Virus record (IMG/VR): IMGVR_UViG_3300028388_004364
Span: 1-20,393 of that record
Length of the DNA stretch: 20,393 bases
Reading direction: 5' to 3' (one strand)
Source: a virus
Under the pieces are notes generated by a model that saw only the letters and a program-made list of their open reading frames with translations, was not told where the DNA came from and ran no database searches. The translations under genes were made by a program, and so were the position numbers. Position 1 is the first letter of the stretch, and each line of letters opens with the position of its first letter. This document shows, in pieces, positions 1-13,531 of this stretch.

Positions 1-779
1 TTGAAGCTGGCTTGTTCGCCTTTACCGATGGTAAGGGTGGAGCCTTCTTGCATCGGAATTTCACAAGGGGAGTTGTCAGCCAGGTTACGTGCCAGTCGCT
101 TAGCGCCTGTTTTAAGGGGCATGAGACCCAGTGGCTTGCCGTCCTTGGATACCAGACCTAGATACGAGAGGAAGGCCTGATTTTCGCCTGTTTTGACCTC
201 TTTGACGATGATTTTTTCCAGCTCGAGGGTTGTGTCTTGGTAGTCAGCGATGTCCAGGATACCGCCGCCTTTGCCCCGTTCGATGGAGCTTGCGTAGTAG
301 GACAACACTGCGCGCACATCGCTGTTCAAGTCCCGTAAGTGCTTGCGTTCCAGCTTGTCGGTGTTTTGGAAGAAACCGATAGGCATTTCCACCGTGTCGC
401 CGTACTGATTCTCGCCTTCATAAGTGATGGTAATCTTGTTGTCGACGGCAACCAACATCAGCTTATCAGCCAGTTCGTCGCTGATGCGGTAGTAATAATC
501 ACCCACTTGGATTGCCAGTTCAGGTTCATCGCCGTCATCGAACTGTTTCTTACCGATGCGAGGGCCGAAAACCTTACTGACAGTACCGTTGTCGCATTTC
601 AACAGGAAGGGTTTGACGTCAGCGTGCTCCGATTCCAGGGCACCGCAGTCTTCCAACAGGGAGGTAATCAGGCCGTGGACAACGCTGTAACCTTCGATAG
701 CTGCCATCGGTACGGCGGCCCAAGTTTTGTCAGCGGGGACGGTAGCGGCTAAGACGTCGGACTCAAATTTGTTAAGCAT
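1..779 (-). CDS. Hypothetical phage protein, 3' end outside window
   Basis: An open frame runs from an ATG at 779-777 to the window edge without a stop, giving at least 259 residues. The product starts MLNKFESDVLAATVPADKTW and is a soluble, fairly acidic protein with no membrane segment or motif I recognise. The codon pattern (GCC, CTG, GGT, CGT) matches the phage structural genes, so I take it as real; the plus-strand frame at 339-752 is its shadow. No Shine-Dalgarno sequence precedes the ATG and no clear promoter was seen in the 130-bp gap at 780-909. It is the last visible member of a minus-strand series at 1-2411. Function unknown. Confidence 0.7.
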   Translation of the reverse strand, partial: MLNKFESDVLAATVPADKTWAAVPMAAIEGYSVVHGLITSLLEDCGALESEHADVKPFLLKCDNGTVSKVFGPRIGKKQFDDGDEPELAIQVGDYYYRISDELADKLMLVAVDNKITITYEGENQYGDTVEMPIGFFQNTDKLERKHLRDLNSDVRAVLSYYASSIERGKGGGILDIADYQDTTLELEKIIVKEVKTGENQAFLSYLGLVSKDGKPLGLMPLKTGAKRLARNLADNSPCEIPMQEGSTLTIGKGEQASF

Positions 780-909
780 GATAGTGAAGTAGTAGTGAAC
801 TGCTTAGTTATTGTTACGGCGGTTAAGGTGTATTTCCGGGAGACTTTCAAATTAATTTTGTAACCCGTTTCTTTCCTTGACCGTTACTAACAGATTACAG
901 CCGCGATTA

Positions 910-1440
910 TCAAGGTTGGTACCCTATTGTGACACTGTTTTCTTGATGGTAGTCGGAGAAGTAGCGGCATGCCTGCACAAACATTTGGATGTAGGACGCC
1001 TGCACATCGATATCAGGGTTGATGCCGTAGGTTAAATCGGAGGCGTCCTCTGCGGCGTGTTTACCCAGGATGACCTCCAACATGTAGGTAACCACTTCAA
1101 CCTCTGAGATGCCCCGGTCATTGCACACCCATTTCAGGCGCAGTTGCACGTTACGCATGTCTTTGAGGGTGGCTGCACGGAGTGACTGCTCGGTCTCCCG
1201 GTGCAGTATGTCGAGTTCACGTTGCACGGGGTCCCCTGTAGCATAGTCTTCTACATGTGTAGCCATCTTGATACGCAACGTAAGGGCCTCGCGCATCAGG
1301 GCTGACACAACCTCTTGAGCAAGGGGGCTGTAAAGCATCGCGTAACGCATCAGGAAGGCCACTGCGTAGTCTAGAGGCATGATTTGATATCCAACCTCTC
1401 CGACACGCACTGTAGGGGCAGTATAGGATGCCTCAAACAC
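910..1440 (-). CDS. Hypothetical protein with antirepressor-like motif
   Basis: 176 residues if the GTG at 1440-1438 is the start. The N-terminal part holds MPLDYAVAFLMRY followed by an amphipathic stretch ending TLRIKM. This resembles the pattern P-x-x-x-A, aromatic, A/L-rich helix, R shared with the genes at 1558-1914, 1980-2411 and 13564-14046, and recalls the C-terminal region of phage/cyanobacterial BRO-type antirepressor-like proteins. That link is inference from memory. The start is uncertain: no Shine-Dalgarno sequence is present, and a 14-codon ORF beginning ATGCAA on the minus strand ends with a TAA one base before the GTG, so either coupled translation from that leader or a one-base frame difference is possible. 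It lies downstream of 1558-1914, separated by a full-length hairpin repeat. Confidence 0.6.
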   Translation of the reverse strand: MFEASYTAPTVRVGEVGYQIMPLDYAVAFLMRYAMLYSPLAQEVVSALMREALTLRIKMATHVEDYATGDPVQRELDILHRETEQSLRAATLKDMRNVQLRLKWVCNDRGISEVEVVTYMLEVILGKHAAEDASDLTYGINPDIDVQASYIQMFVQACRYFSDYHQENSVTIGYQP

Positions 1441-1495
1441 TTTACGTGATTGTGATAGTGGAATGTTGCATGGTAGTGTCTTGCATGATAGTGTG

Positions 1496-1553
1496 TGCTC
1501 GCTGCGCTCGCGACACCTGGCTGATAGGGCCGTGTGTCAGGAGCGCTAGCGAC
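1496..1553 (-). repeat. Post-stop hairpin repeat, full length (copy A)
   Basis: A 58-bp full-length member of a dispersed family. Read on the minus strand it begins GTCGCTAGCGCTCCTGACAC, continues ACGGCCCTA plus a 7-nt loop, and ends GGTGTCGCGAGCGC-AGCGAGCA. GCGCTC pairs with GAGCGC and GACAC with GTGTC, giving a strong stem-loop without a following T-run. It starts 4 nt after the stop codon of the gene at 1558-1914 and precedes the gene at 910-1440. Role inferred: mRNA 3' end protection, processing or attenuation. Confidence 0.85.
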
Positions 1554-1557
1554 TGTG

Positions 1558-1914
1558 TTAGGAGTTACAGCGGTTAACTGACTTCAGTGCCCGCAGTCCC
1601 AGTGGGATGCTACCCACGTATGAGAGTAGTGCATTTGCCCGGGGATTTTCCTTTAACACCTCGTACCAGAATACGAAGTAGGCTTGTTCCAGTGGTAGCA
1701 AGTGGTACAAGGCCCCGTCAGCCTCTAGGACGCTAGGAAAGTAGCCTTTACCGTGCATCCGCTTGTAGACGTCGGTCTGTAGGATAGCGTTCACTTCAGC
1801 AGGTCCCAGTCCGAGGAGGCCCCCAAAATTGGTGGTATCGAAGGACACTTTATTGTCATGGCTGATGAAGGCATCAATCGTGTAGTTGCGTGCTTTGAAG
1901 TTGGTGTGTTGCAT
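1558..1914 (-). CDS. Hypothetical protein, antirepressor-like paralogue
   Basis: 118 residues from ATG 1914-1912 to TAA. The C-terminal half carries LLPLEQAYFVFWYEVLKE followed by an A/L-rich helix and SIPLGLRALK. This lines up by eye with MPLDYAVAFLMRY in the gene at 910-1440, VPAADADGLVIKW at 1980-2411 and VLPVEDAISVIFWEYW at 13564-14046. The N-terminal part (KVSFDTTNFGGLLGL) could be a small DNA-binding or BRO-N-like fold, but I cannot show that. No Shine-Dalgarno sequence is visible; a 6-bp perfect hairpin lies 8 nt upstream of the ATG. Genes 1980-2411, 1558-1914 and 910-1440 are probably transcribed together from the promoter at 2439-2467. Confidence 0.65.
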   Translation of the reverse strand: MQHTNFKARNYTIDAFISHDNKVSFDTTNFGGLLGLGPAEVNAILQTDVYKRMHGKGYFPSVLEADGALYHLLPLEQAYFVFWYEVLKENPRANALLSYVGSIPLGLRALKSVNRCNS

Positions 1915-1922
1915 GGTAATGT

Positions 1923-1938
1923 GCGGGCTAGCGCCCGC
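1923..1938 (-). promoter_or_regulatory. Perfect 6-bp hairpin before the 1914 start codon
   Basis: GCGGGC-loop-GCCCGC, a perfect G+C stem with a 4-nt loop, lies between the half-repeat at 1951-1980 and the ATG at 1914-1912. It stands where the 3' arm of the repeat family would be expected, and could structure the intercistronic mRNA or affect initiation of the 118-residue gene. No T-run follows, so it is not a classical terminator. Confidence 0.5.
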
Positions 1939-1950
1939 GATATATGGTCA

Positions 1951-1980
1951 ATAGGGCAGTGTGTCAGGAGCGACAGCGAC
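1951..1980 (-). repeat. Post-stop hairpin repeat, 5' half (copy E)
   Basis: On the minus strand this reads GTCGCTGTCGCTCCTGACAC followed by ACTGCCCTAT, which matches the 5' half of the full-length repeat at 1496-1553. The 3' arm is missing. It abuts the stop codon of the gene at 1980-2411, whose last two codons and TAG (AGTCGCTAG) look like part of the repeat, as in the gene ending at 6528. Confidence 0.75.
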
Positions 1981-2411
1981 TAGCGACTAGCTGGCAGGTA
2001 GGAGACCGAGCTGAAATCGGACTCCAATTGGTGCCAGTTGCTATCGTATGTCGAGATGATTTCAGAGAAGCTAAGGGGCGATGCGCTGGTAATCATCGTG
2101 CTCCAGGCGGTAACCAGTTCACCGCTGTTACGATACACGGGCTTGATGTATGGGAGTAAGGCCCCTGATGTTTCCAGCCACTTGATAACCAGGCCGTCCG
2201 CGTCAGCAGCAGGCACCCGTTCAAAGGTAAGGGACCGCATAACAAAGGGCTTACCGTCGGTGTCCCGTAACAGGGGGTAGGAGGCCCCGCAGACGCATGC
2301 AATGGTAAGGGTCCCATCGCTGTATTTCACAACGTAATCACCTGACTCGGTGTGCAGCACATAGGTGGACAGGGTAGTGTATGGTAGCGTGCTAATGCGT
2401 TGGTTCATCAT
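1980..2411 (-). CDS. Hypothetical protein, first gene of the leftward operon
   Basis: 143 residues starting MMNQRISTLPYTTLSTYVLH. The frame is open upstream to a GTG at 2453, but that region overlaps a near-consensus sigma70 promoter whose -10 box is at 2439-2444, so translation must begin downstream. The ATG pair at 2411-2406 is the first suitable start, about 20 nt after the predicted transcription start, with no Shine-Dalgarno sequence. FERVPAADADGLVIKWLET in the middle resembles the shared motif of the genes at 910-1440, 1558-1914 and 13564-14046. The last codons, AGT CGC TAG, are supplied by the adjoining repeat. Function unknown; position suggests early expression, divergent from the replication block. 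Confidence 0.65.
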   Translation of the reverse strand: MMNQRISTLPYTTLSTYVLHTESGDYVVKYSDGTLTIACVCGASYPLLRDTDGKPFVMRSLTFERVPAADADGLVIKWLETSGALLPYIKPVYRNSGELVTAWSTMITSASPLSFSEIISTYDSNWHQLESDFSSVSYLPASR

Positions 2412-2438
2412 GTTGTCGTAATCAATTTGTACACGTAC

Positions 2439-2467
2439 ATCATAATATACCACGCCTGGAACGTCAA
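2439..2467 (-). promoter_or_regulatory. Sigma70-type promoter, leftward
   Basis: On the minus strand TTGACG (2467-2462), a 17-nt spacer, then TATGAT (2444-2439). An alternative -10, TATATT, overlaps at 2449-2444 but with a short spacer. It drives the genes at 1980-2411, 1558-1914 and 910-1440 and forms a divergent pair with the promoter at 2905-2933. Confidence 0.8.
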
Positions 2468-2502
2468 CCCGGGCAAAAATAAAAAGTTTTTACAGCAACC
2501 AT

Positions 2503-2824
2503 GACAGTTTTCATAAATCGCTAAATTGTCACAGCATGCGGTCCCACCTGAAACCATGCATCATGGCCGCAAAATGGCTGAAACCCCTATTATCTCGTTC
2601 ATTTTTTGTCAAAAAATTTCCAAAAGTGTGAATAAGGTGCACGCTAGTATTTATTTATTACTAGATAATAAAAAAGAGGGTCCCACTGTACCTTGTGCAC
2701 ACTTTACAAAAATTTTTGACAAAAAATGAACGAGATAATAAGGGTTTCAGCGATTTACGGTATTTATGCCCGGCTGTAAGTGGTACCACCTGCTGTGACA
2801 ATCCGATGGTTTTTGAAAACTGTC
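2503..2824. repeat. 322-bp coaxial imperfect palindrome in the divergent region
   Basis: Three sets of inverted arms share the same centre near 2664: GACAGTTTTCA (2503-2513) with TGAAAACTGTC (2814-2824), ATTGTCACAGCA (2525-2536) with TGCTGTGACAAT (2791-2802, 12 of 12), and the element arms that open at 2577 with GCTGAAACCC and close at 2751 with GGGTTTCAGC. The core is A+T rich and contains the smaller palindrome CTAGTA...TACTAG. Between the promoters at 2467 and 2905 there is no convincing gene; the frame at 2526-2729 is merely open through the palindrome. A candidate replication origin, partition site or regulatory hub. Confidence 0.85.
2577..2751 (+). repeat. Palindromic element, left copy (175 bp)
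   Basis: Starts GCTGAAACCCCTATTATCTC and ends with the near-inverse GAGATAATAAGGGTTTCAGC. Each arm reads outward TTTTTGACAAAAAATGAACG. The asymmetric core (GTGCACGCTAGTATTTATTT...AGAGGGTCCCAC) gives it an orientation. A second copy with the core inverted lies at 11326-11499; the two are roughly 90% alike by eye. No target-site duplication was evident at either copy, so a transposable MITE is possible but unproven. Confidence 0.9.
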
Positions 2825-2880
2825 ACACTGGGTGCTGTTACGGTACCCTGCGTGTTGTACTTATGTGAATGTGCAGCCCT

Positions 2881-2901
2881 GTGTCGCGAGCAAAGCGAGC
2901 A
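2881..2901 (+). repeat. Post-stop hairpin repeat, 3' half only (copy D)
   Basis: GTGTCGCGAGCAAAGCGAGCA matches the 3' arm of the dispersed repeat family (one or two substitutions relative to the copy at 6521-6579). It is the only copy with the 3' arm alone and lies just upstream of the -35 box at 2905, in the sense direction of the replication operon. Confidence 0.7.
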
Positions 2902-2904
2902 GGG

Positions 2905-2933
2905 TTGACAATCTCGGTGCAGGATGTTATAAT
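2905..2933 (+). promoter_or_regulatory. Perfect consensus sigma70 promoter
   Basis: TTGACA (2905-2910), a 17-nt spacer and TATAAT (2928-2933), identical to the bacterial housekeeping consensus. Transcription should start near 2940, about 40 nt before the ATG at 2982, and would drive 2982-3488, 3485-4174 and probably the helicase. Host RNA polymerase is therefore the likely early polymerase. Confidence 0.92.
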
Positions 2934-2981
2934 ATAGACATCGCGCACGAACCTACACAATAAAATAGGAGATAGTGTTTC

Positions 2982-3488
2982 ATGCTAAAGATTGGTGACA
3001 AGGATACCCGTCAGGTTAAAATCTCGAACAGTAACCCACTACACAATTACTTTCAACGGAAAGTGAATGACGGCATGCACAAAGCAGGGACCGAAATCAT
3101 GGACCTCTGGGAGCAGGCTGAAGAGTGGAGCCTCGACTTGGAGGAGTTGTTAATGGGTGTTGCCGTCAATGGCAAAAAATTTAACGCCGTGTTTTATGTG
3201 AAAATTGAGGAGTTTTTGGCTGTAACCCTCGAGAAATACGGGCGCGGGGCGGTCTACCACAAAAAACTGACCCCTCTTCACAAATACCTGGCAAAAACGG
3301 AGGTCGATAAACCCGCTAAAGCAAATATCGCTGACGTCTATGAAAACGCTGGAGGCCCTGTGCTGTCTGAGTATGACGCACTTGCCTTTGTTGAGTCCCG
3401 CCGTGACGCCCTCCTGCTGTTGTTGGAGCTGTATGGCAAGGTGGGTCAACAGAGGGCCTCCTACTGGCTGATTACGCGCACCGCATGA
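2982..3488 (+). CDS. Hypothetical early protein
   Basis: 168 residues beginning MLKIGDKDTRQVKISNSNPL. A clear ribosome binding site (AGGAG, 2968-2972) lies 9 nt before the ATG, and the perfect promoter at 2905-2933 immediately precedes it, so this is probably the first strongly expressed gene of the rightward block. The sequence is mixed helical, with a Leu-rich helix near the C-terminus (DALLLLLELYGK) too short and charged to be a membrane anchor. It overlaps the next gene by 4 nt (ATGA), indicating translational coupling. I do not recognise a family; partner of the following gene is a fair inference. Confidence 0.85.
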   Translation: MLKIGDKDTRQVKISNSNPLHNYFQRKVNDGMHKAGTEIMDLWEQAEEWSLDLEELLMGVAVNGKKFNAVFYVKIEEFLAVTLEKYGRGAVYHKKLTPLHKYLAKTEVDKPAKANIADVYENAGGPVLSEYDALAFVESRRDALLLLLELYGKVGQQRASYWLITRTA

Positions 3489-4174
3489 TGCAACCATTCA
3501 TCGCTATGTGTGAATTGAACCCCTGGTTTGAGGAGGCAATCATGCGTAACGCTGAACCGACACCGCGCCTCGGTAAGGGCAGTTTCAAAGACAAGGTGTT
3601 ACGGGGCATCTGGAGGCTACGCGGTGGCAAGACCCGCAACCTGCGGGGTGTGGGACGTCAACTGTGGTTGCTGATGCACGCCGTTTTAGAGGCCGTGGCT
3701 TTCTCGGAGCGCATGGATTTTGCTAAAACATGGATTTTGGCGGAAAGCATGTACAGCGAGTGTTTCAAGAATTGGTGGATACCTAACCTGCCTGTTTTCA
3801 CCGATAACTGCTATGCTGTCAAATACGTCCTGGACTGCCATGAGCATGACGCGCATGTCATCACCAAAAGCCGGGATGGTATGTTACGTATGTCCGATTT
3901 CGGGGGTGTCTACACGGCCCCTGAACGGGAGGTCCACCCGCTGGAGGTTAATAAGTATTTCTACATGAGTAAAGATACTTACATCCACCGCCTGGCAGCC
4001 CTGGAACTGGTACACGTCGATAAGGAGGTCCCACAATTCAGTGCAAATATGGAATGGTACGAGGAGATTGCTGAAATGAACCCTGACCTGTACGATAAGC
4101 TGCACCGTCGCAACCGCATCGACCCCCGTAAAAAATCATACGCTGGTATCAAGGCACTACCGCCTCTCAGATAG
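3485..4174 (+). CDS. Hypothetical early protein coupled to upstream gene
   Basis: 229 residues; the ATG at 3485 overlaps the TGA of the preceding gene (ATGA). The N-terminal third is basic (RLGKGSFKDKVLRGIWRLRG), which would suit nucleic-acid binding; the middle is aromatic, with a run around ESMYSECFKNWWIPNLPVF; the C-terminus is again basic (KLHRRNRIDPRKKSYAGIK). No catalytic motif was identified. Located directly upstream of the SF3 helicase, so a replication accessory or primase-related role is possible, but there is no direct support. A half-copy of the hairpin repeat begins 10 nt after its stop codon. Confidence 0.8.
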   Translation: MMQPFIAMCELNPWFEEAIMRNAEPTPRLGKGSFKDKVLRGIWRLRGGKTRNLRGVGRQLWLLMHAVLEAVAFSERMDFAKTWILAESMYSECFKNWWIPNLPVFTDNCYAVKYVLDCHEHDAHVITKSRDGMLRMSDFGGVYTAPEREVHPLEVNKYFYMSKDTYIHRLAALELVHVDKEVPQFSANMEWYEEIAEMNPDLYDKLHRRNRIDPRKKSYAGIKALPPLR

Positions 4175-4183
4175 TAGGCCCCG

Positions 4184-4213
4184 GTCGCTGTCGCTCCTGA
4201 AAACGGCCCTATA
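4184..4213 (+). repeat. Post-stop hairpin repeat, 5' half (copy F)
   Basis: GTCGCTGTCGCTCCTGAAAA then CGGCCCTATA matches the 5' half of the family, 10 nt after the TAG of the gene at 3485-4174. The 3' arm is absent. Sense orientation, as in all other copies. Confidence 0.75.
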
Positions 4214-4252
4214 CTAACGCTTGATTAACCGTTCAACCCTTTGGAGAATCTA

Positions 4253-4357
4253 ATGTCCAACAACAACAAACTATCGAAACAGGAAATCGCTGAAATCAAC
4301 GAGAAGATGGCTCGCATGATGCGCACTGGTAAGGGCCGTCCCACTGCCTGGCACTGA
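4253..4357 (+). CDS. 34-codon ORF in frame with the helicase, ended by TGA
   Basis: ATG at 4253 with a good ribosome binding site (TTTGGAG, 4240-4246); the same leader, TTTGGAGA then TAATG, precedes the gene at 6616. The product starts MSNNNKLSKQEIAEINEKMA, is helical and basic, and ends GRPTAWH before TGA (4355-4357). The reading frame then continues without interruption through 27 protein-like codons (GGNWQGLSLYRPYVQEW...) into the helicase ORF at 4439, in the same frame. The ORF is thus either a small independent gene or, more interestingly, the true N-terminus of the helicase separated by one stop codon. A strong Shine-Dalgarno-like GAGGAGG overlaps and follows the TGA. Confidence 0.65.
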   Translation: MSNNNKLSKQEIAEINEKMARMMRTGKGRPTAWH

Positions 4358-4438
4358 GGAGGCAACTGGCAGGGACTGTCCCTGTATCGCCCCTACGTCC
4401 AAGAATGGCAGGGCACAACCTATCGTATCTGGAAGCTG

Positions 4439-5677
4439 ATGTCACCGCAGGATTACGGCGATATCCAGTACCTCTCTGAAAGCATGAATGAGGTCGTAGC
4501 CAAAATTTGGGGCGAAAACTTCATGGAATTTGCGCAGAGCATGATTACTTGGGGTGCAAATGTGAAGGACGGTTTCATCAACCGTGTCACTGCAGGCCGT
4601 CATCTCACCCATGAGCACAAGCACCTCCTGCACCGCCGCGAGGACATCGGATTTGACGGCCTTGCAATGAAGTACCGCCCGCACAACCCAAAGGGCCTCA
4701 ATGTCACCGACAAAATCTTGTCCTGGTTACCGGAGGCTGAACGCAAAATCCTGGCTCTCTGTATCGGTCGTATCATGAACAATGATGACGGCAGCACATG
4801 GCGCACGGTACCCATCATCAACGGTCGCCCCGGCCTCGGTAAGACGATGTTTGTCAGCAAGCTGGGACGTCATCTGGAACGCCTCGGATGCGTTGTTGCA
4901 CACATTGGAGCACCCATCGACCGTTTCACGTTCAACATCGAGAACGCGGCCGCTGACTTTTGGATTACCGATGACACCTCCCGCTCCGACATTGAGGGCC
5001 TGACACGTAACAGCACCTTCAAGTCCCTTGCATCCAACAGTGACACCGTCGTGGAGGACAAGTATGTCCAACCCGTCACTGTGAAGCCCTGTGGTAGCTG
5101 GTTCATGCTCGGTAATGCCATCCACCGTAACCACCTGATTGGTGCTGACCCGGGTGTGTTAGACCGTATTGCAATACTGCAATGTAACCCAGAAGACACC
5201 CGTAGCACCGACGTAATCGAGAAGGACGCTTGCATGCAACTAGGCATGGATGCTACCGCCCTGTGGGAGGAGCTGCTGGCTGAGTGCAGTGCCTACTACC
5301 GTCAAAACGTTGGTAATATGGAAAAGGCTATCAACGACTTGCGTAATCACTGCATTGAACCACCCACCGAGCTGCCCCTGGCTGAACTTGCAGCTATCGG
5401 TATCGTGTTGCATCACACCGCAGATAGCGATGGGAACCCGTTTGTTGAATGGAGCCTGGACACAATCCTGGAAAGCATTGCCGTCGGTCAACACTGGCTC
5501 CCACAGTCCCTGGTTGACAGCCTGCAGTGCATCCAATGGAAAGCAACGGTACGCTCCATCCGCCGTCGTTCAAACATGGGTGTGGAGCCATCCCCTAAAA
5601 CCATGACCCAGTACATCCGTACCACCGACGGTCACACCCTGCCCTCTACCATGGCGCCTTACGCTCAATCAGTGTAA
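4439..5677 (+). CDS. Superfamily 3 (D5/primase-helicase type) ATPase
   Basis: 412 residues from the ATG at 4439. Walker A is NGRPGLGKT (residues 128-136), a Walker B-like ADFWITDD lies at 172-179, and FKSLASNSDT...SWFMLGN (194-226) fits the SF3 motif region ending in the sensor Asn; PGVLDRIA carries a likely arginine finger. SF3 enzymes unwind DNA as hexamers at replication forks and often carry a primase or DNA-binding N-terminus. The same frame is open upstream to 4358 and, across a TGA, to the ATG at 4253, so the annotated start may not be the native one; the site before 4439 has only a weak GGAAG. The 3' end overlaps the convergent gene at 5665-6189 by 13 nt. Confidence 0.85.
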   Translation: MSPQDYGDIQYLSESMNEVVAKIWGENFMEFAQSMITWGANVKDGFINRVTAGRHLTHEHKHLLHRREDIGFDGLAMKYRPHNPKGLNVTDKILSWLPEAERKILALCIGRIMNNDDGSTWRTVPIINGRPGLGKTMFVSKLGRHLERLGCVVAHIGAPIDRFTFNIENAAADFWITDDTSRSDIEGLTRNSTFKSLASNSDTVVEDKYVQPVTVKPCGSWFMLGNAIHRNHLIGADPGVLDRIAILQCNPEDTRSTDVIEKDACMQLGMDATALWEELLAECSAYYRQNVGNMEKAINDLRNHCIEPPTELPLAELAAIGIVLHHTADSDGNPFVEWSLDTILESIAVGQHWLPQSLVDSLQCIQWKATVRSIRRRSNMGVEPSPKTMTQYIRTTDGHTLPSTMAPYAQSV

Positions 5678-6189
5678 CCCGCCGCCTTTGCCTCCCGCTT
5701 GGCCCGTTCCACCTCTGCCTTTGTCAGTTCATCATCAACATCCCCTATGATGGGTGCCTGCAGTGATGCCTGTTTGATGCAGGATAACGACAGGCGGGCC
5801 TCCACCGGGAAGCCGTATAGCCAGTCACTTTCAACCCAGTCATAGGATTGGATAATAAGGCCCTCAATAGTACGAGGCCCCTGACTGAAAGCCAGTACCT
5901 TACCTGTAGCAACAAAGCGGTCTACAGTCTCCCTGATAGGTGATATGTTCCTACAGCCCTGACGCACCAAAATATCGGACAGTGTCAGGGCCGTATTAGG
6001 CACCCTTACCCGCCTGTGGTAGGTCCTACTGCTACCGAGGGGTGTGATAGGGTTGTACTCTGCCTGACGGTTATATTGGATGGACTGCGGTGCCACTGGT
6101 AGCACCAATACTGTGTCACCGTCATCGGTGAATACGGCTGGTTGGAACCCGGTCGTCTTGAGATTTTCCGGAATGTTTATTGCACGCAT
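5665..6189 (-). CDS. Probable baseplate / tail-tube adaptor protein
   Basis: 174 residues from ATG 6189-6187. The β-rich sequence LVLPVAPQSIQYNRQAEY near residues 28-45 followed by a long strand-loop-strand region and ESDWLYGFPVEARLSLSCIK (residues ~130-150) resembles the fold of phage baseplate LysM-adaptor/tube-initiator proteins, which link the hub to the tube. This is a pattern impression, not a confident family assignment. The last 25 residues are a charged helix. It is on the opposite strand to the surrounding replication genes, sharing a 9-nt divergent start region with 6199-6528 and overlapping the helicase end by 13 nt, so it is likely expressed late from its own promoter, which I could not identify. 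Confidence 0.75.
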   Translation of the reverse strand: MRAINIPENLKTTGFQPAVFTDDGDTVLVLPVAPQSIQYNRQAEYNPITPLGSSRTYHRRVRVPNTALTLSDILVRQGCRNISPIRETVDRFVATGKVLAFSQGPRTIEGLIIQSYDWVESDWLYGFPVEARLSLSCIKQASLQAPIIGDVDDELTKAEVERAKREAKAAGYTD

Positions 6190-6198
6190 AGGATTGAT

Positions 6199-6528
6199 AT
6201 GTTAACGTTGAAACAACGGGTTATGCAGGCCCTTGGTCATCCTGCATCAGCCTTTGAACTGTGGCCTGACTTCACGACTGACATCAGCACGGAGTTGGAG
6301 GCCCTACTGACCCAGCTACAGGACATTGATGATGCTATGGCGGCCCTTGTATCGGACAGTAATGTTGTCCAACTGGATACCATCAAACTGGATGTCAGCA
6401 AGGGCCTCAAAAGCCTGAGACGTCAGGGTAGCCTCAAACTGAAGTACATAGCGGCTATAACTGGCTATCCTTTAGCCTATGACAGGTATGTACCACCCAC
6501 GCGGTTATCACTGCGTAACAGTCGCTAG
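6199..6528 (+). CDS. Hypothetical small protein
   Basis: 109 residues starting MLTLKQRVMQALGHPASAFE. The frame is open to an ATG at 6142, but that start would overlap the divergent gene starting at 6189; the ATG at 6199 has AGGA 6-9 nt upstream and is preferred. The protein is mainly helical with a C-terminal YPLAYDRY. It has the size of head-tail joining or neck proteins, but I do not recognise the family. The final codons, AGT CGC TAG, belong to the repeat at 6521-6579, so the current C-terminus may have been set by repeat insertion. Confidence 0.7.
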   Translation: MLTLKQRVMQALGHPASAFELWPDFTTDISTELEALLTQLQDIDDAMAALVSDSNVVQLDTIKLDVSKGLKSLRRQGSLKLKYIAAITGYPLAYDRYVPPTRLSLRNSR

Positions 6529-6586
6529 CGCTCCTGACACACGGCCCTAGTAACCAGGGTGTCGCGAGCGCAGCGAGCACAGCGAC
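6521..6586 (+). repeat. Post-stop hairpin repeat, full length (copy B)
   Basis: GTCGCTAGCGCTCCTGACAC through GTGTCGCGAGCGCAGCGAGC (6521-6579), extended by ACAGCGAC whose AGCGAC (6581-6586) pairs with the first GTCGCT. Stem pairs visible: GCGCTC 6528-6533 with GAGCGC 6566-6571; GACAC 6536-6540 with GTGTC 6559-6563; CCT 6546-6548 with AGG 6556-6558. It contains the stop codon of the gene at 6199-6528 and precedes the ribosome binding site at 6601. Confidence 0.9.
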
Positions 6587-6615
6587 CGCACACACAACTT
6601 TTTGGAGATTATGTA

Positions 6616-7116
6616 ATGGCTAGACTATCATTCACCCAGCAATTGAAAGTGGGTAAACAACTGGAGGAATACCTGCTGGAGATACTGGGTGCTGAACCCG
6701 TTGATATGGAACAGCAACGCCGGGGTATCGATATGGTCTGTAGCAACGGTGTTACAGTCGAGGCAAAGCTGGACGTCCGAGGTGCCAAAAGTGGTAACTT
6801 CTTTGCTGAATTACAGACTGGTAACAAGCCGGGGTGCATGTTTACGTCCACTGCTGACATCATCGTTATCTGCATCGGTAGCCCCGGCAACTATCCGATG
6901 TTTTTGACGAACAGTTCCCGGTTTTCGGCGGCAATGATTACATTCAACCAGAAAAAGCTGAAAACCGTGACATGCCGTAATCCTGGAGGCTACAGCTCCA
7001 AGGGGATGTTGGTACCTTTCCGGTTATTGAAAGAATTCTGTGTTATAGTGGAATCGGAGTCTCAATTTATCGAGTATGTCTCTGATTACAGTTTACGATT
7101 TAGAAAGGCGTCATAG
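6616..7116 (+). CDS. PD-(D/E)XK nuclease-like protein
   Basis: 166 residues from the ATG at 6616, chosen because it has TTTGGAG 10-15 nt upstream (6601-6606) and because the longer frame to 6559 would run through the repeat. RRGIDMVCSNGVTVEAKLD gives the spaced D39...E49-A-K51 of the PD-(D/E)XK fold, with a preceding helix containing EEYLLEIL that can supply the first acidic residue. Such enzymes include resolvases, recombination exonucleases and restriction enzymes; the position directly before the polymerase suggests a role in phage DNA processing or recombination. A 41-nt overlap with the polymerase start indicates coupled translation. Exact substrate unknown. Confidence 0.8.
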   Translation: MARLSFTQQLKVGKQLEEYLLEILGAEPVDMEQQRRGIDMVCSNGVTVEAKLDVRGAKSGNFFAELQTGNKPGCMFTSTADIIVICIGSPGNYPMFLTNSSRFSAAMITFNQKKLKTVTCRNPGGYSSKGMLVPFRLLKEFCVIVESESQFIEYVSDYSLRFRKAS

Positions 7117-9478
7117 CCCTCCACAGCCATCTCAGGGGGTCAAACAGGCCCTCGAGATGCACGGTCTCTCATTAGAGTACCGATACACCGACAAACTACC
7201 CATTGAGGGCGTTTCCATCGATGACCTGCATACAGGGGCGGTGGACACCTTCAATGGGTTGCTTTTTGATGTGAAGGTCCCACAAAACATTGGTTATGTA
7301 GCAACGCTGGAGAGGGGCCTCTGGTACTATCAACCACATGGTAGTAGTGAATGGGTGGCAGTAGCACCGCCCTGCAATGAGTATTTAGTCCTAGATACTG
7401 AGACATACGGCCTTGCACAATCACGGCCCGCAATCGCCGTTGCAGCCTGCAGCCGTGGTACCTACGCATACGTGCACACGCCGCACCATAACCCACACTC
7501 GCTGGAGAGCCGGATACCACTGGGTGATGGCAATGTTGTTGCAGGGTGGAACGTGTCGTTTGACCGGGCACAGATGAGAAGCACTTTCCGCTACCATGAC
7601 GACAACCTGTGGCTTGATTACATGTCTATCATTGTGGCAATGCACGGTCACAGCAATCAGCAGGCAGGCTTAGTGCGCAAAATTCAGTCAGGAAAGTGCG
7701 AGTATGTGCCTGAATGGTACGAGCATGTCTGCGGCCGTTCCCTAAAGGCTGCTGCTCAATATTTTGGCCTCTCAGTGGACAAAAGCCAGCGTGACATCAT
7801 CGTCGATGAAGGGTACGCGGCGTTCAAAGGCAACCTGTTGCACGATAGCATTCAATACTGCTTTGATGACGTGCTGTTGACTGCAAAGGTGGGACGCCTG
7901 ATGATTGCAGCGGCCTTACGGTGGTACCATCCAGTTTCGTTGCGCGCCCTGATGTTACGTAACACCCAGATTATGCCGTTGTCAGAGGCGTGGGTGGATT
8001 ACCTGGACCGTAATGAACCAGAGAGTGAAGCCATTTTGGAACGGGTGTCACAGTTCATCCTCGACAGGGCTGATGCACTGCTGGAAAGCGGTCCCACTAC
8101 GGAGCAGCACGAGGAGTTGGACTGGACCCTGTTGAAGGCGGGCAAAAACAAGGGCCTCCCACGATGGTATGTTGACATACGCAAGAACCCCTCTTTAGGC
8201 GTCCGTGTTGTGCCCTACATCATCGGCCTGCATTACCGGGGTGCACCGATGTTCCTGGATGACAACAAAAAGTGGGTCGCAGGCGGCAAGCATGTGCCAC
8301 ACCCTGAAACCGGGCTACCGATATCAAATGCGTTCGTCAAAGGCAGTCGGTACGAGGGTGACGGGCTATCTGACCTGTTGACTGACGTGGAAAGCCTTAC
8401 CAACTGGAAGTCGATGCGTAAACAGATTGCTGAAACCACCTATGTGCGCGGTGAAGACGGCACTGTGTGGCATTGCCCCCGTGTTGTTGCTTGGGGTACC
8501 ATCAGCCGCCGTGAAGCCTCCAGTATCTGGATGCAGGTGCCTAACCCTAAAGAGCACCGCCTGGGTACCGAGGCACGCATGTTAATCCAGGCCCCTAAGG
8601 GTTACACACTGGTAACGTTTGACGTGGACAGTGAAGAGGCTATGATTGCGGCGATTATGGGTGATGCACACGCCCCTAGTGATTACCGCATGGACATCAA
8701 GGAGCCACTGCCTGGAGCCACCCCGTTCTCGTTGTCAGCGCTTGCAGGCGACAAGGGTGAAGGCACAGACATCCACTCACTGGCTGCTAAAAAGCCCGGC
8801 ATCGCCCGTGCAAGTGCAAAGGGCTTAGTGTACGGCGGCCTGTATGGACAGGGCGTTAAGGGGGCATCTGACAGCCTCTACAAAGCAGGTGTGGCTCCAG
8901 AGGACTGTGACCGTATTGCACAGGAGTTTACCGCCGGGTTTAAGGGTGTCAAACGCGGTAATGCATACCACGGCGGGCTGGCATCATACACGTTTACGGC
9001 CCTGGATAACCGGGGTGACTGGAACGCTAAAACACTAGCATTCAACCATCCATTACCCCGCAGTTTACAGGGGCACGAGGAGTTTGCCACAACCCGGAAA
9101 AACTGGGTCATCCAATCCACTGGCTCCGACATCCTGGACATCATAACCACCGTCTTTGACAATCTAGCCACAAGTGAAGGTATCCGATATCGCTTCGTGA
9201 TGTTCCATCATGACTGCGTTAGTGTGATGGTAGAGGACGATGCAGCCCTGACTGAACGTGTTGCAGTGTTGTTACAACGCGCACACGCAACCGCATGGCT
9301 CCACATCTACCAAAAACTGGGTTTCAAGGTGGTACCTACCAAGGTGTTGATTGCATCATCAACAGAGGTGGGTCCACAATACAAACATGGAAAAACTCCA
9401 AAATATTCCGTGAATCTTCCGGTTAAGGAGTTGTACCCCTCGGATATTAGCAGTAGTTACTGGAATAACAAACAATGA
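7076..9478 (+). CDS. Family A DNA polymerase, mitochondrial Pol gamma-like
   Basis: 800 residues with 3'-5' exonuclease and polymerase domains. Exonuclease: DTE (D107, E109), GWNVSFDRA (D163) and YCFDDVLLT (D265), equivalent to D198/E200, D274 and D399 of human Pol gamma. Polymerase: motif A FDVDSEE (D516), motif B R578-x3-K582-x3-Y586 (RASAKGLVYGGLYGQG), motif C HHDC (D713). Features shared with Pol gamma but not with T7 or Pol I include GTISRRE before motif A, QAPKGYTLVTFDVDSEE, GTDIHS before motif B and NWVIQSTGSDIL after it, and a Pol gamma-like spacer between the domains. In motif C the usual Glu after HD is Cys714. Start 7076 lies inside the nuclease gene; a later start is possible. The stop overlaps the next ATG (ATGA). 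Confidence 0.95.
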   Translation: MSLITVYDLERRHSPPQPSQGVKQALEMHGLSLEYRYTDKLPIEGVSIDDLHTGAVDTFNGLLFDVKVPQNIGYVATLERGLWYYQPHGSSEWVAVAPPCNEYLVLDTETYGLAQSRPAIAVAACSRGTYAYVHTPHHNPHSLESRIPLGDGNVVAGWNVSFDRAQMRSTFRYHDDNLWLDYMSIIVAMHGHSNQQAGLVRKIQSGKCEYVPEWYEHVCGRSLKAAAQYFGLSVDKSQRDIIVDEGYAAFKGNLLHDSIQYCFDDVLLTAKVGRLMIAAALRWYHPVSLRALMLRNTQIMPLSEAWVDYLDRNEPESEAILERVSQFILDRADALLESGPTTEQHEELDWTLLKAGKNKGLPRWYVDIRKNPSLGVRVVPYIIGLHYRGAPMFLDDNKKWVAGGKHVPHPETGLPISNAFVKGSRYEGDGLSDLLTDVESLTNWKSMRKQIAETTYVRGEDGTVWHCPRVVAWGTISRREASSIWMQVPNPKEHRLGTEARMLIQAPKGYTLVTFDVDSEEAMIAAIMGDAHAPSDYRMDIKEPLPGATPFSLSALAGDKGEGTDIHSLAAKKPGIARASAKGLVYGGLYGQGVKGASDSLYKAGVAPEDCDRIAQEFTAGFKGVKRGNAYHGGLASYTFTALDNRGDWNAKTLAFNHPLPRSLQGHEEFATTRKNWVIQSTGSDILDIITTVFDNLATSEGIRYRFVMFHHDCVSVMVEDDAALTERVAVLLQRAHATAWLHIYQKLGFKVVPTKVLIASSTEVGPQYKHGKTPKYSVNLPVKELYPSDISSSYWNNKQ

Positions 9479-9792
9479 AACACAACATCATCACCGACTT
9501 CATCCTCGCTGCCACAACAGCCACCGCCCTTTTCGTGACTGGTAGTGTCGCAGACAACCACTTCTCATCCGACAACAGTGCCACTAATCTGGGTATCACA
9601 CACGAGGCCACACTAAACCGGGGCGAGGATACCGAGGCATGCCGCCTCCTGGGACTTGGATGCCCTGATACCGCATCCACCAATACCGACGCCCCTGACA
9701 CCGTTGACAGCCATCACCGTGGCAGCAGCAGACGTCTCGATGATGAGTTACTCAGGCTGTCGTCATTAGGGCCTACGATGATGCCTATGTGA
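9475..9792 (+). CDS. Small exported or membrane-anchored protein
   Basis: 105 residues starting MKHNIITDFILAATTATALF. The ATG overlaps the polymerase stop (ATGA). A hydrophobic segment at about residues 5-26 ends GSVA, a plausible signal-peptidase site before DN; the rest is hydrophilic with C56 and C63 as the only cysteines (ACRLLGLGC), which could form a disulphide in the periplasm. Candidate roles are spanin-like, superinfection exclusion or envelope modification; the sequence does not decide. The last 79 nt overlap the 3' end of the convergent hub-lysin gene at 9714, so the C-terminal third is constrained by both frames. Confidence 0.6.
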   Translation: MKHNIITDFILAATTATALFVTGSVADNHFSSDNSATNLGITHEATLNRGEDTEACRLLGLGCPDTASTNTDAPDTVDSHHRGSSRRLDDELLRLSSLGPTMMPM

Positions 9793-10553
9793 CCGCCGTA
9801 GGTAGGATAGATACGCACCCCTACCGCAATGGCACCGGGTGTTGTCGGTACATTCCTCCAACCCTCCTCTTTAAGGGCCTTTTCGACTGATAGGACCGAT
9901 AGGGTGTTGTCACCAAAAGTCCGTCCAAAAACAGGTTTCATGACGAACTCATTGACCGCCCATGCACAGGATAGCCGTCCGTTACGGGTGGCAGGCGGGC
10001 TGGGTGGGTTACCGCTCTTCTTACCTGTGTTTGATATGGCTGCATCAACCATCTGCTGCAGTATAGGGGCATTAGGGTTTAGGGGCCTGCTACCGCCTGA
10101 TGTGACGGCCCCCTGTACCTGCGGCGGGGGTGGCACCTTGACGTCAGCCTCCTGTGGCTTGTAGACGGTCAGTTCCATCAGGCCGTCACCCTGCCGCTTG
10201 ATACCGTCGACAATGTAATCGCCTGTGGGACGTAGGTGTTCAGATTGCACGTAATCACCTACCCTGATAGGTGAGTCAGGCACTGTTAAGGTAGCCTTAT
10301 GCCCCTTAACGAGACCGTCTTTGATGATAGTCAGGGACGTAACGGGGCTGTCGGACTGGTTGACGTTCAAAACATCCCTGAGTACCACACGACGCCTGTC
10401 CTCGTCCTTCACGTAGATAAGTGATGCCCCGTTGTCTTCACTGACCGTTTCACCGTCTTGTGGCTCGACTGTCAAGGGGCTACCAACCAGCTCGGACGCC
10501 TTACGGTAACCAACCGCCTCAATCCTGATTGTACCGCTGCCACTGACGTGCAT
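9714..10553 (-). CDS. Baseplate hub-like protein with NlpC/P60- or CHAP-type hydrolase
   Basis: 279 residues from ATG 10553-10551. The N-terminus MHVSGSGTIRIEAVGY matches MQVIVGPIRIDNVVGY of the upstream gene. Residues 40-135 are β-rich with RVGDYVQSEHLRPTGDYIVD, like the hub (gpD/XkdQ-type) fold. A PPPPQ linker (141-145) leads to a C-terminal cysteine peptidase-like domain: Cys196 in LSCAWAVNEF, His255 in GGHIGIIVG and Asn269 in LSNSS, consistent with a peptidoglycan amidase/endopeptidase that opens the wall during DNA entry. It overlaps 10519-11298 by 35 nt and the convergent small gene by 79 nt. Family assignment rests on motif order only. Confidence 0.8.
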   Translation of the reverse strand: MHVSGSGTIRIEAVGYRKASELVGSPLTVEPQDGETVSEDNGASLIYVKDEDRRRVVLRDVLNVNQSDSPVTSLTIIKDGLVKGHKATLTVPDSPIRVGDYVQSEHLRPTGDYIVDGIKRQGDGLMELTVYKPQEADVKVPPPPQVQGAVTSGGSRPLNPNAPILQQMVDAAISNTGKKSGNPPSPPATRNGRLSCAWAVNEFVMKPVFGRTFGDNTLSVLSVEKALKEEGWRNVPTTPGAIAVGVRIYPTYGGHIGIIVGPNDDSLSNSSSRRLLLPR

Positions 10554-11298
10554 AGCCCGCTATCTTGGAGGCCCTATCGGTGCCGTTGATGATACGTCTG
10601 GCACCCACAAAATCGACACGACCGGGTCCAATGTAGTCGGATAGGCTTTTGCCCGTGAAGACACCTGTACGGCTACCATGGACCAATACGAAGCAGCTTA
10701 GACCATAGTCTTTAACCATCAGGGTGTAGTCGGTAAGCAGGGGTTGCCCTGTCAAGTCCTGATAGCGTTTGTAGTTAAACCTCCACGTCAACTGGACTAG
10801 GCCCCTACCCCGGTATGGGTCGTATCTGAAGGGGCCTCCAAATTCCGTAATCGGTATGAAGAAGCCGTTTTTGCCGTTCACCTTACCCAGGTTGCTGCAC
10901 TCATGTTGTGCCGTAGCCAGGACATAGGCTATCTGGTTCCTGTCCGTGACACCCTGTCTCAAGCACTCCCGTATGATGCATTGGATGCGTACCCGTTCAC
11001 TGGCAGGTACCGGGAACGATGGGACCCCTCGAGACGTGAACCGCACCGGGGGCATACCATCCACACCCTGTAGCGACACCTGGCTGTTGACAGAGCTGCC
11101 CTGGGTAGGCGGTGTCGGTTGCGGCGGTGTAGGCACAATGATGCCCTTAGTCGTCTTTGCCAGGGACAGTAGGGCCGTCAGCAGGCCGTCGCTGTATGGC
11201 ACCTCAAATGAGTATTTATTACTACCTCCATCAGCCGAAAGTGTCACATCGTAACCTACCACATTATCGATGCGGATAGGTCCCACAATCACTTGCAT
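10519..11298 (-). CDS. Baseplate protein with GH19 (chitinase-like) lysozyme domain
   Basis: 259 residues. The ATG at 11298-11296 has a perfect GGAGG (11308-11304) 5 nt upstream and aligns with the start of the downstream paralogue; the ATG at 11310 inside the Shine-Dalgarno region is rejected. Residues 1-50 are a β-strand hub-type module; a Pro/Thr linker (PTPPQPTPPTQG) follows. Residues 100-258 match the GH19 muramidase/chitinase fold: catalytic Glu133 in ATAQHECSN, YRGRGLVQLTW (162-172), and a C-terminal RRIINGTDRASKIAGY helix. Probably cuts wall glycan during injection or lysis. Transcribed with 9714-10553 away from the palindromic element. Confidence 0.88.
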   Translation of the reverse strand: MQVIVGPIRIDNVVGYDVTLSADGGSNKYSFEVPYSDGLLTALLSLAKTTKGIIVPTPPQPTPPTQGSSVNSQVSLQGVDGMPPVRFTSRGVPSFPVPASERVRIQCIIRECLRQGVTDRNQIAYVLATAQHECSNLGKVNGKNGFFIPITEFGGPFRYDPYRGRGLVQLTWRFNYKRYQDLTGQPLLTDYTLMVKDYGLSCFVLVHGSRTGVFTGKSLSDYIGPGRVDFVGARRIINGTDRASKIAGYARQWQRYNQD

Positions 11299-11325
11299 GC
11301 TAGCCTCCATTTTGACTTACAAATC

Positions 11326-11499
11326 GCTGAAACCCTTATTATCTCGTTCATTTTTTATAAAAAATTTCTGTAAAGTGTGCAGTAGGGCGGTGGGACCCTC
11401 TTTTTTATTATCTAGTAATAAATAAATACTAGCGTGCACCTTGTTCACACTTTTGGAAAATTTTTGATAAAAAATGAACGAGACAATAGGGGTTTCAGC
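11326..11499 (-). repeat. Palindromic element, right copy (174 bp, inverted)
   Basis: Begins GCTGAAACCCTTATTATCTC and ends AATAGGGGTTTCAGC; the core (GTGGGACCCTCTTTTTTATT...TACTAGCGTGCAC) is the reverse complement of the core at 2577-2751, so the two copies are inverted. It lies between divergent genes 10519-11298 and 11600-13459. The right arm contains an ATG (11474) in frame with the Asp-rich gene, but all four arms of the two elements encode the same MNEI(I)-like string, so this ATG belongs to the element rather than the gene. The rest of 11311-11599 holds only the promoter at 11528. Confidence 0.9.
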
Positions 11500-11527
11500 C
11501 GTTTTACCGCGAGTTACCCACTATTGG

Positions 11528-11556
11528 TTGACGTTTCCACCTGACCGTGATATATT
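11528..11556 (+). promoter_or_regulatory. Sigma70-type promoter for the Asp-rich gene
   Basis: TTGACG (11528-11533), 17-nt spacer, TATATT (11551-11556). The -35 TTGACGTTTCC is shared with the leftward promoter at 2467 (TTGACGTTCC). Transcription would start near 11563, downstream of the element ATG at 11474, so the first usable start is ATG 11600. Confidence 0.75.
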
Positions 11557-11599
11557 GAGACAGTACAGTAATATCGACGGACAAAGGTACCACAACATT

Positions 11600-13459
11600 A
11601 TGCGTACAACAACCACTGAACGCTTCACAACAGCCCTTAGCACCCTCCTCCACGCTGATTTTGGGGCTATGACATACCCGCAGTTAAAGAAGGCTGCAAA
11701 GGGCCTTATCATGAAGCCACATAAATTGTCACACGGGGAGCTGTTGGAGGAGCTGTCCCAGTTACGGGAGGTGTCACAGCAGATTATTGAGGGTCCCACA
11801 ACCGAGCGCCTGCCCCTCCGTCTATGGGACTACCAGAATGAGATGCCCCGCCTAGCCACTGTAATGACGCAAGAGGAACGCCGAAAGATGAACCGTAAAA
11901 ACGCCCTTAAACGCCTCAAAAAAGTGTTCAGCGAGGAAGAGTTCAAAAAGATGTCCCGTAGCTCCCTGAACCGCCGTATGGGTGCCTCTCTGAACGTGTA
12001 TCGCAACGAGAGTGCCAGTGTATGGTTCAACCTGACCGATACCACTATCCACTTGCTTCAGGTTGAAGGCACCTTGGAAGGCTGTGAAGAGGGCGACATC
12101 GATACCGACAGCGTGGACATCCTGTCCTTTGACTGGAAGAACCTCCCTGACCTGAAAAAGATTGTCACCCAGGTCCTTGACTCCCGCTCCGACGATGAAG
12201 AAGGCCCTGATGATGACGGCCCTGATGAAGGCCCTGATGATGACGGCCCTGATAACCATCAGCAGCCTGACGATAATCAACAGCCTGATAACAGTCAACA
12301 CGATGACAGCATTGATGAGAATGATAATACTGGCACTGATATTGTCCCTGATGATGACAGTGCTTGTGATGAAGCCCCTGGTAATGATGACCCTGACGAC
12401 AGTGCCCCTGACATTGACGATAGCCCTGATGAGCCAGTAGATGATAGCCAGGGTGACGCGGAAGAAACGGGCAAGCAGCGGTTCTTTGAAGGGGGTGAGG
12501 AACATAACTCGGACAAGCACGCAGAGCTGCTTAACGACATTTTTACCCGGGTACAGCAGCAATTGGACCTCCAACCAGCCAACATGTCATGGTCTGAAGA
12601 GGTGGCATACGAGGCACACAAGATGCTCAAAGAGGCCCCGTTCGAGGTACCTGGGTTGTGTCTGAACCATGAGTTTCAACTGCAGTTCACAATTGAACGG
12701 CGCCCCTACTACTACACGATAGACGAGGACAGTTGTTCAGCCACCTTCCAGTGCATGTTTGAGGAGCGGGATGACGCGAAAATCCCGGTGTATTTCGAGA
12801 GCGACAATGTCATCAGCGCTGCAATGTCATTACGGTTCGACGTTGAACGGGCCTTGGACATCGACGTCCCTAAAGACCGATTTGTGGGACTACCCACTGC
12901 ACAGGAGATTGACGGTCGCTCCGCTCCCGAAAACGGCCCTACCAACCAAGGTGTCGCGAGCGTAGCGAGCGCTAGCAGTGTGTATGAAGCGTATTTCCGC
13001 ACCCTCCAGGACCTGGGTGACCCTGCTTTCAGTGCAGCGGGTGAACAGGGTGGCACCTTTGTTATGACCATTAACGGCAAGGCATGCACCCTCGGTATCT
13101 CTCCCACCCATACCATGCGCGGTAACTTTGAAGGCAGCCAGGAAGTGGGTGGCAAATACACCTACACCGCGATGTGTGACCGTTCACGGCAACGCATCAA
13201 GACCGATGAACCAAAAGACACCTTGGTCATTATGGACCTGCTAGTGCGCACGATAGGCCCCGCTGATGCCCTGTATGATGTGTACGATGACATCAATCTG
13301 ACCAAGTGCATCACCGAGGACACCGTTGCCTACTTCGTCATCCAGCCTGATGATACCTTTGCTATCCACGTCATCAAAGACGGCAACAAGGACGATTACG
13401 CGGTCCTGACATTGGATGAGAACGGTACTGTGCAACCACCTATCGCCTCCATCCGCTAG
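11600..13459 (+). CDS. Asp-rich hypothetical protein with embedded repeat
   Basis: 619 residues from ATG 11600 (MRTTTTERFTTALSTLLHAD). The frame is open to 11474, but that start lies in the palindromic element and upstream of the promoter at 11528-11556. Order: a basic helical N-terminus (residues 1-150, with RRKMNRKNALKRLKK), an Asp/Pro/Gly/Asn-rich acidic region (about 195-290) built from GPDDDGPDE-type repeats, and a folded C-terminal half. Residues 439-458 (GRSAPENGPTNQGVASVASA) are encoded by a copy of the dispersed hairpin repeat. I recognise no family. The acidic tract could mimic DNA or bind basic partners, but this is speculation. Ends at a half-repeat and a strong bidirectional terminator. 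Confidence 0.85.
   Translation: MRTTTTERFTTALSTLLHADFGAMTYPQLKKAAKGLIMKPHKLSHGELLEELSQLREVSQQIIEGPTTERLPLRLWDYQNEMPRLATVMTQEERRKMNRKNALKRLKKVFSEEEFKKMSRSSLNRRMGASLNVYRNESASVWFNLTDTTIHLLQVEGTLEGCEEGDIDTDSVDILSFDWKNLPDLKKIVTQVLDSRSDDEEGPDDDGPDEGPDDDGPDNHQQPDDNQQPDNSQHDDSIDENDNTGTDIVPDDDSACDEAPGNDDPDDSAPDIDDSPDEPVDDSQGDAEETGKQRFFEGGEEHNSDKHAELLNDIFTRVQQQLDLQPANMSWSEEVAYEAHKMLKEAPFEVPGLCLNHEFQLQFTIERRPYYYTIDEDSCSATFQCMFEERDDAKIPVYFESDNVISAAMSLRFDVERALDIDVPKDRFVGLPTAQEIDGRSAPENGPTNQGVASVASASSVYEAYFRTLQDLGDPAFSAAGEQGGTFVMTINGKACTLGISPTHTMRGNFEGSQEVGGKYTYTAMCDRSRQRIKTDEPKDTLVIMDLLVRTIGPADALYDVYDDINLTKCITEDTVAYFVIQPDDTFAIHVIKDGNKDDYAVLTLDENGTVQPPIASIR
12203..12256 (+). repeat. Short tandem coding repeat GGCCCTGATGATGAC
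   Basis: Units of 15, 12, 15 and 12 nt starting GGCCCTGAT encode GPDDD, GPDE, GPDDD, GPDN. Looser CCTGA units continue to about 12436. Slippage-prone; length variation between isolates would be expected. Confidence 0.8.
12915..12972 (+). repeat. Hairpin repeat inserted in frame inside a gene (copy C)
   Basis: GTCGCTCCGCTCCCGAAAAC, then GGCCCTACCAACCAAG, then GTGTCGCGAGCGTAGCGAGC, a full-length member carrying several substitutions. It lies within the 619-residue gene, in the sense direction and open in frame, with flanking coding sequence continuing on both sides. Confidence 0.85.
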
Positions 13460-13460
13460 G

Positions 13461-13489
13461 GTCGCTACGCTCCCGAAACCCTGGCTATA
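13461..13489 (+). repeat. Post-stop hairpin repeat, 5' half (copy G)
   Basis: GTCGCTACGCTCCCGAAACC then CTGGCTATA, closest to copy C, one base after the TAG of the 619-residue gene. GGGT before it and ACCC after it can pair. Confidence 0.65.
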
Positions 13490-13493
13490 GAAA

Positions 13494-13527
13494 AGGCCCT
13501 TACCGATGTGGTAGGGGCCTATTTTTT
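13494..13527. terminator. Bidirectional Rho-independent terminator
   Basis: AGGCCCTTACC-GATGT-GGTAGGGGCCT forms an 11-bp stem (one G-T wobble) followed by ATTTTTT on the plus strand; the plus-strand AAAA before the stem supplies a T-run for the minus strand. It closes the convergent genes ending at 13459 (plus) and 13564 (minus). It is the only classical terminator I found in the window. Confidence 0.9.
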
Positions 13528-13531
13528 ATGA

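Follow-up and report, generated by a model that had tools for sequence, protein, structure and literature searches.

Cyanobacterial genomes reportedly carry miniature inverted-repeat transposable elements (MITEs) and very small repeats, among them Nezha and those linked with Elhai in 2008, which are said to be short, non-coding, dispersed, palindromic and intergenic. The yeast 2-micron plasmid undergoes Flp/FRT inversion, and in arrays of clustered regularly interspaced short palindromic repeats (CRISPR), repeat ends of the GGAAAC type usually mark the side of the leader. Here we compare with these systems two palindromic elements, A (2572-2756, + strand, 185 bp) and B (11321-11504, - strand), in IMG/VR record IMGVR_UViG_3300028388_004364, which, judging by its proteins, is most likely from a contractile-tailed cyanophage; the window referred to below is the whole of this record, 20,393 bases. 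Our tentative reading of the sequence is that A and B could be a host-type cis-acting control palindrome, present twice and lying upstream of sigma-70 promoters, and that the element is probably not a switch for flipping DNA but a control site that the phage has borrowed.

Element A is an imperfect palindrome, and B is an inverted copy of it with 93% identity. In a self-alignment, positions 2571-2756 matched 11505-11321 in inverted orientation over 186 bp (93% identity, 274 bits), compared with a top minus-strand self-match of 41.9 bits among 30 first-order Markov shuffles; the inverted pair is far above chance. This bears out the original prediction of near-identical inverted palindromes of ~175 bp at 2577-2751 and 11326-11499. 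The term palindrome itself is apt for the inverted arms, which match at 87% in A (2572-2641 with 2687-2756) and 82% in B (11321-11386 with 11439-11504), but the symmetry is imperfect and the core is asymmetric. An invariant 53 nt of this core (2634-2686, + strand), the longest exact match between A and B, is the same in both copies, and the pair therefore has a real orientation. The left arm of A is closer to the right arm of B (94%) than to its own partner (87%), which argues that the complete element was duplicated and inverted after the palindrome existed; the second copy would then be the product of an inverted duplication of the whole element. Both elements are AT-rich (GC content 32-34%, against 53% for the phage), and A is nested in a palindrome that is longer but weaker (2492-2838, 75%), with an outer inverted repeat of 71% whose left and right arms are at 2502-2573 and 2754-2825.

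All four arms of A and B end in an outward-pointing module of 23-28 nt, AACGARANAATARGGGTTTCAGC, and more fully in GAACGAGAYAATARGGGTTTCAGC, likewise pointing outward. The four copies lie at 2577-2600 (- strand, leftward, GAACGAGATAATAGGGGTTTCAGC, 42.5 bits), 2728-2751 (+ strand, rightward, GAACGAGATAATAAGGGTTTCAGC, 43.9 bits), 11326-11349 (- strand, leftward, 44.0 bits) and 11476-11499 (+ strand, rightward, GAACGAGACAATAGGGGTTTCAGC, 41.0 bits). A position matrix built from 71 host sites places these four at 41-44 bits, compared with 6.2 for the next site in the window and at most 8.7 in shuffles, and no fifth copy of GAACGAGAYAATARGGGTTTCAGC was found in the window with up to 3 mismatches over its first 21 bases.

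Both elements are situated between divergent genes, A between 1980-2453 (- strand) and a gene starting at 2982 (+ strand), and B between 10519-11310 (- strand) and 11474/11600 (+ strand). Outward from A into the replication operon stands a perfect sigma-70-type promoter, TTGACA-17-TATAAT (2905-2933, + strand), which is the sole 12/12 match in the scanned part of the window (1-20000). A promoter-like TTGACG-17-TATGAT (2439-2467, - strand, 10/12) points leftward from A, and TTGACG-17-TATATT (11528-11556, + strand, 10/12) points outward from B. The window holds eight such sites of at least 10/12 in total; an outward one lies within 200 bp of both elements (2/2), against a mean of 0.15 for random placement (P = 0.007). 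The placement in divergent promoter regions claimed by the original prediction is thereby supported, except that no promoter was found to the left of B: the position between divergent promoters that bidirectional control would call for is present, with the right-hand promoter alone at B. Two other uses of the arms were weighed by eye and set aside. That the ATG within them serves for coding is disfavoured as three of the four arms open short frames and the fourth has a better downstream start, and a single-subunit RNA polymerase promoter, or -10-like, reading of the module fails on the wrong spacing of TTGACA-12-GATAAT.

It is in cyanobacteria that the module recurs. When 84,980 species genomes were searched for an exact 24-base match, one stretch came up, in the cyanobacterium Rhizonema sp. 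PD38, where the module lies 147 bp away from a CRISPR array that adjoins genes for Cas1 and a reverse transcriptase. If up to 2 mismatches are allowed, the module is present in 15 of the 195 genomes of that order, and the relaxed pattern AACGARANAATARGGGTTTCAGC with 1 mismatch occurs in 51 of 388 genomes of the cyanobacterial class, in up to 17 copies each, the reversed pattern in none. Eighty module-bearing loci were read, each site being counted once. Of these, 18, from 16 genomes or replicons, showed a CRISPR array, and in all 18 it stands on the AACGA side of the module, at 135-151 bp. Read from module to array, the array repeats end in GGAAAC or a one-base variant in nearly all cases (L133 was not resolved), which, by the usual rule, would put the module on the leader side. 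Of the 18 leaders, 11 have a sigma-70-type promoter of 9/12 or more that points toward the array and one has such a promoter pointing away, and in 10 of those 11 array-directed promoters the -35 element starts 41-45 or 89 nt from the module. The fixed distance in leaders suggests that the module is functional and not randomly inserted. At L062 and L133, array-like repeats flank the module on both sides, perhaps as two arrays sharing one leader region, and at L067, L068 and L134 the module has a leader-like context with no array detected within the DNA examined, so that these are possibly orphan leaders. The single Rfam match among the host loci, a HEARO RNA in L067, is unrelated.

Ten leaders have the module flanked by an inverted repeat of 10-17 bp (the X-box) that differs between genomes. 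The mean stem around the module was 6.65, compared with 5.65 in swaps (200 swaps, highest 6.3), but stems of at least 8, seen at 13 of 62 sites, fall within the swap control (mean 9.6, highest 13). What stands out is the longest class, of 10-17 bp at 10 sites, and since all 10 are CRISPR-leader loci, a general hairpin for the module is rejected and holds for leaders only. This has a bearing on the idea that the phage elements are leader decoys, which would titrate a leader-binding factor or misdirect spacer integration or array transcription. The module indeed matches the fixed part of cyanobacterial CRISPR leaders, the phage has four copies of it, and Cas1 and reverse transcriptase genes adjoin one such array; yet the phage element holds no recognisable CRISPR repeat, inspection by eye did not show the covarying X-box of the leaders in it, and the module, being present in plasmids and MITE-like repeats as well, is not CRISPR-specific. 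We regard decoys as very unlikely.

Other host copies are embedded in MITE-like repeats whose terminal inverted repeats, as judged by eye, differ from one another; several of these MITE-like repeats hold two tandem module copies ~45 bp apart. Host sites are mostly lone or tandem, and the inverted-pair geometry of the phage was found in none of 291 host genomes. These observations touch the strongest rival to a control site, namely that A and B came into the phage by insertion of host repeats, either MITE-like or of the very small mobile kind, their regulatory position reflecting tolerance of insertion in intergenic DNA. The residence of the module in cyanobacterial repeats with differing termini and up to 17 copies per genome would fit, as would the finding that A and B are whole-element copies, AT-rich relative to the phage, and the unrelated dispersed palindromes of its relatives are what turnover would give. 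Against it, neither A nor B has a target duplication of at least 3 bp directly abutting its homology ends (a TTAC close to B is displaced by 8 bp), the paired geometry is lacking in the host genomes, and the fixed CRISPR-leader distance speaks for a function of the module; on balance insertion of a mobile repeat is rather unlikely. Searches of an open-access library turned up no paper on the module motif; PMC3733652 cites a 2008 study of very small cyanobacterial mobile repeats (Elhai 2008), and the module may be one of the repeats described there.

The same geometry has consequences for the proposal, made in the original prediction, that the pair flips the intervening 8.6-kb segment as recombination sites do in the 2-micron plasmid. 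Near-identical inverted copies with an asymmetric core are compatible with such a role, and 53 bp of exact identity could support homologous recombination. However, this is also the longest exact match between A and B, the record shows a single orientation, no recombinase such as a site-specific inversion pair of the Flp/FRT or Hin/Cin type would call for was found among the scanned proteins of the window (a record fragment), host module sites are mostly lone or tandem, and the arms are unrelated to those of L010, the one close relative by protein that is similarly laid out. Flipping is highly improbable and found no support.

Plasmids also carry the module. Within a plasmid collection, 17 of 18 matched records are cyanobacterial, and none of the best places in those 17 is in an annotated gene. 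Ten plasmid loci were read, with CRISPR arrays at three, ParA/ParB nearby at three, a DUF3854 gene at one, an integrase at two and none of these at one. On a Calothrix plasmid (L136:2679-3022), two module copies 320 bp apart lie among repeated TTCTTAAGT-type units near parA/parB, and at L127:5400-5560, on a 69.8-kb contig with a plasmid-like look, the module lies among iteron-like GTCGCAGT repeats. The exact module occurs in nine viral contigs, in three apparent groups (chance ~0.05 by estimate), some of which may be plasmids. Neither the window nor five viral loci that bear the module yielded a tRNA, and the idea of a tRNA or attachment site was dropped for that reason. The viral contig collection gave no exact match to the 26-mer pattern of the arms, the 201-bp element had none in the phage collection, and a 36-base leader query against the latter gave four weak partial matches, none convincing.

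The original prediction also offered replication origins or partition sites as the role of the palindromes; incompatibility sites are considered here with the latter. This reading retains some backing in that A precedes the replication operon, that the module lies near parA/parB or the DUF3854 gene in 4/10 plasmid loci and that L127 has its iteron-like repeats, but the sign of the GC skew undergoes no lasting change at either element, the module is shared with CRISPR leaders and MITE-like repeats, for which a role in replication would not be expected, and two such origins in 20 kb would be unusual. We consider an origin or partition role improbable. More speculative, and doubtful in our view, is that the module is a hub of mobile-DNA conflict, the four phage copies serving as mimics that draw in or titrate the host factor controlling the activity of CRISPR leaders. 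If so, hosts would have fixed the module in their leaders, while plasmids and phages would place it by replication and partition functions and by divergent phage operons.

Returning to a control site of host type, a conserved cyanobacterial DNA-binding protein, at present hypothetical, might recognise the module pair and, once bound, act on the adjoining promoters by activation, repression or bending. One palindrome would then serve both divergent units, so that A would govern the replication operon and its left neighbour, and the lysin genes and the gene for a 661-amino-acid protein would come under one palindrome at B; the phage would in effect use the host module signal for its own divergent operons. 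Several observations weigh against this. Module-to-promoter spacing in the phage is uneven (about 29, 110 and 155 nt), the search for promoters gave none beyond the left arm of B, and the copies in MITE-like host repeats have no obvious promoter role, which together speak against a simple activator model. In addition, 7 of the 18 leaders have no promoter of at least 9/12, and the association with outward promoters is not significant for the palindromes of two related phages (1/2 in L010, P = 0.23; 1/8 in Leptolyngbya phage Lbo402-yong5, P = 0.31). What gives the case its interest is that a palindrome of an uncultured phage is tied to a sequence at a fixed place in cyanobacterial CRISPR leaders. 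The module offers a short probe for a candidate DNA-binding factor common to CRISPR leaders, small repeats, plasmids and phages of one phylum, and raises the question of whether phages borrow a control signal of host immune memory.

The original prediction had looked to related phages for the elements in regulatory positions. The A/B sequence is absent from the protein relatives, which tells in part against that prediction; unrelated palindromes occur in a few of these relatives. In the search for close relatives, peptide patterns taken from the polymerase by itself or from the sheath yielded none that was confirmed, and two-row alignments gave L010 alone. Among 45 loci, made up of 40 polymerase relatives and five known phages, none has the module above 9.2 bits. 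Long inverted repeats, in sequence unrelated to A/B, are present in four of the 45 (L005, L006, L010 and L046; two are phages and two viral contigs), and none of 32 further relatives has any. In L010, the best relative, a palindrome with 132-bp arms occupies the space between two divergent genes and has a + promoter 64 bp beyond it; an inverted partial copy stands at the contig end, directly before the replication operon. That its arms are a diverged form of the module was unsupported by the position-matrix scan. In Lbo402-yong5 (OR994056), a 53-bp palindromic unit occurs in ~8 places, mostly intergenic, three of which are inverted pairs and one of which is upstream of the DNA polymerase gene; the loop motif of this unit was found in none of the 388 cyanobacterial genomes. 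The architecture thus recurs in a few phages, the sequence does not. Large inverted repeat arrays of about 190-400 bp with 88-95% identity are seen in Microcystis phage Mic1 (L006) at 3000-3800 and 19100-20400 of the locus.

The segment of ~8.6 kb between A and B encodes, by family matches, a primase/helicase-like protein (4439-5677, + strand; DUF5906, DNA primase in PHROG), a gamma-type (PolG-like) family A DNA polymerase (7076-9478, + strand) and an endolysin (10519-11310, - strand), the gene for which begins ~10 bp from B. Of the contents foreseen originally, the helicase, as helicase-like, the polymerase and one lysin are thereby recovered, but the 'nuclease' at 6592-7116 and the second 'lysin' at 9714-10553 matched no family. 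On the far side of B lies an acidic open reading frame of 661 amino acids (11474-13459, + strand), which had no match in family scans and whose first ATG falls within the palindrome; the promoter at 11528-11556 suggests that its real start is near the ATG at 11600 (by eye). It contains an imperfect acidic tandem repeat of GPDDD/GPDE type at 12181-12390. Matches to the polymerase at 23-27% identity came from 11 phage records, each of a cyanophage, and the closest match of the tail sheath is that of Lbo402-yong5 (33% identity), hence the assignment to a contractile-tailed cyanophage. No terminal repeat was found in the window and the record is therefore probably a fragment; no further element copy was found in its 20,393 bases, so that the bracketing by two copies is valid for the visible part alone. 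Rfam gave no match in the window. A second family of dispersed repeats, exemplified by TGTCGCGAGCGCAGCGAGCA and GTGTGTCAGGAGCGACAGCGACT, of up to 64 bp at 94% and mostly intergenic, lies at 1494-1556, 1920-1981, 6518-6581, 12912-12970, 13506-13556 and 2874-2901 and may be terminator-like or akin to repetitive extragenic palindromes (REP-like).

Set beside the systems described at the outset, A and B resemble Flp/FRT in that inverted copies flank a segment, but they are long non-identical palindromes with no known site, and no recombinase was seen in the scanned window proteins. With the units of Lbo402-yong5 they share a palindromic and mostly intergenic nature, inverted pairs and a place before the polymerase, whereas those units are unrelated in sequence, lie in about eight places and lack the module. 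Like cyanobacterial MITEs and small repeats, A and B are short, non-coding, dispersed, palindromic and intergenic, some host MITE-like repeats carry the module, and terminal inverted repeats are present (arms of 87% and 82%, ~185 bp); unlike them, A and B have no flush target duplication, no shared terminal repeat and no host copy. From the cyanobacterial CRISPR leader with GGAAAC-like repeats they differ in that a repeat search found no CRISPR array or repeat in the window, that the inner gap of the module pair is ~144 nt in the phage and short in the leader, and that the longest X-box inverted repeats (10-17 bp) are at leader loci only. What the two have in common is the 23-28 nt module itself, mostly upstream of a sigma-70-type promoter and, in the leader, usually accompanied by a weaker inverted half copy (by eye).

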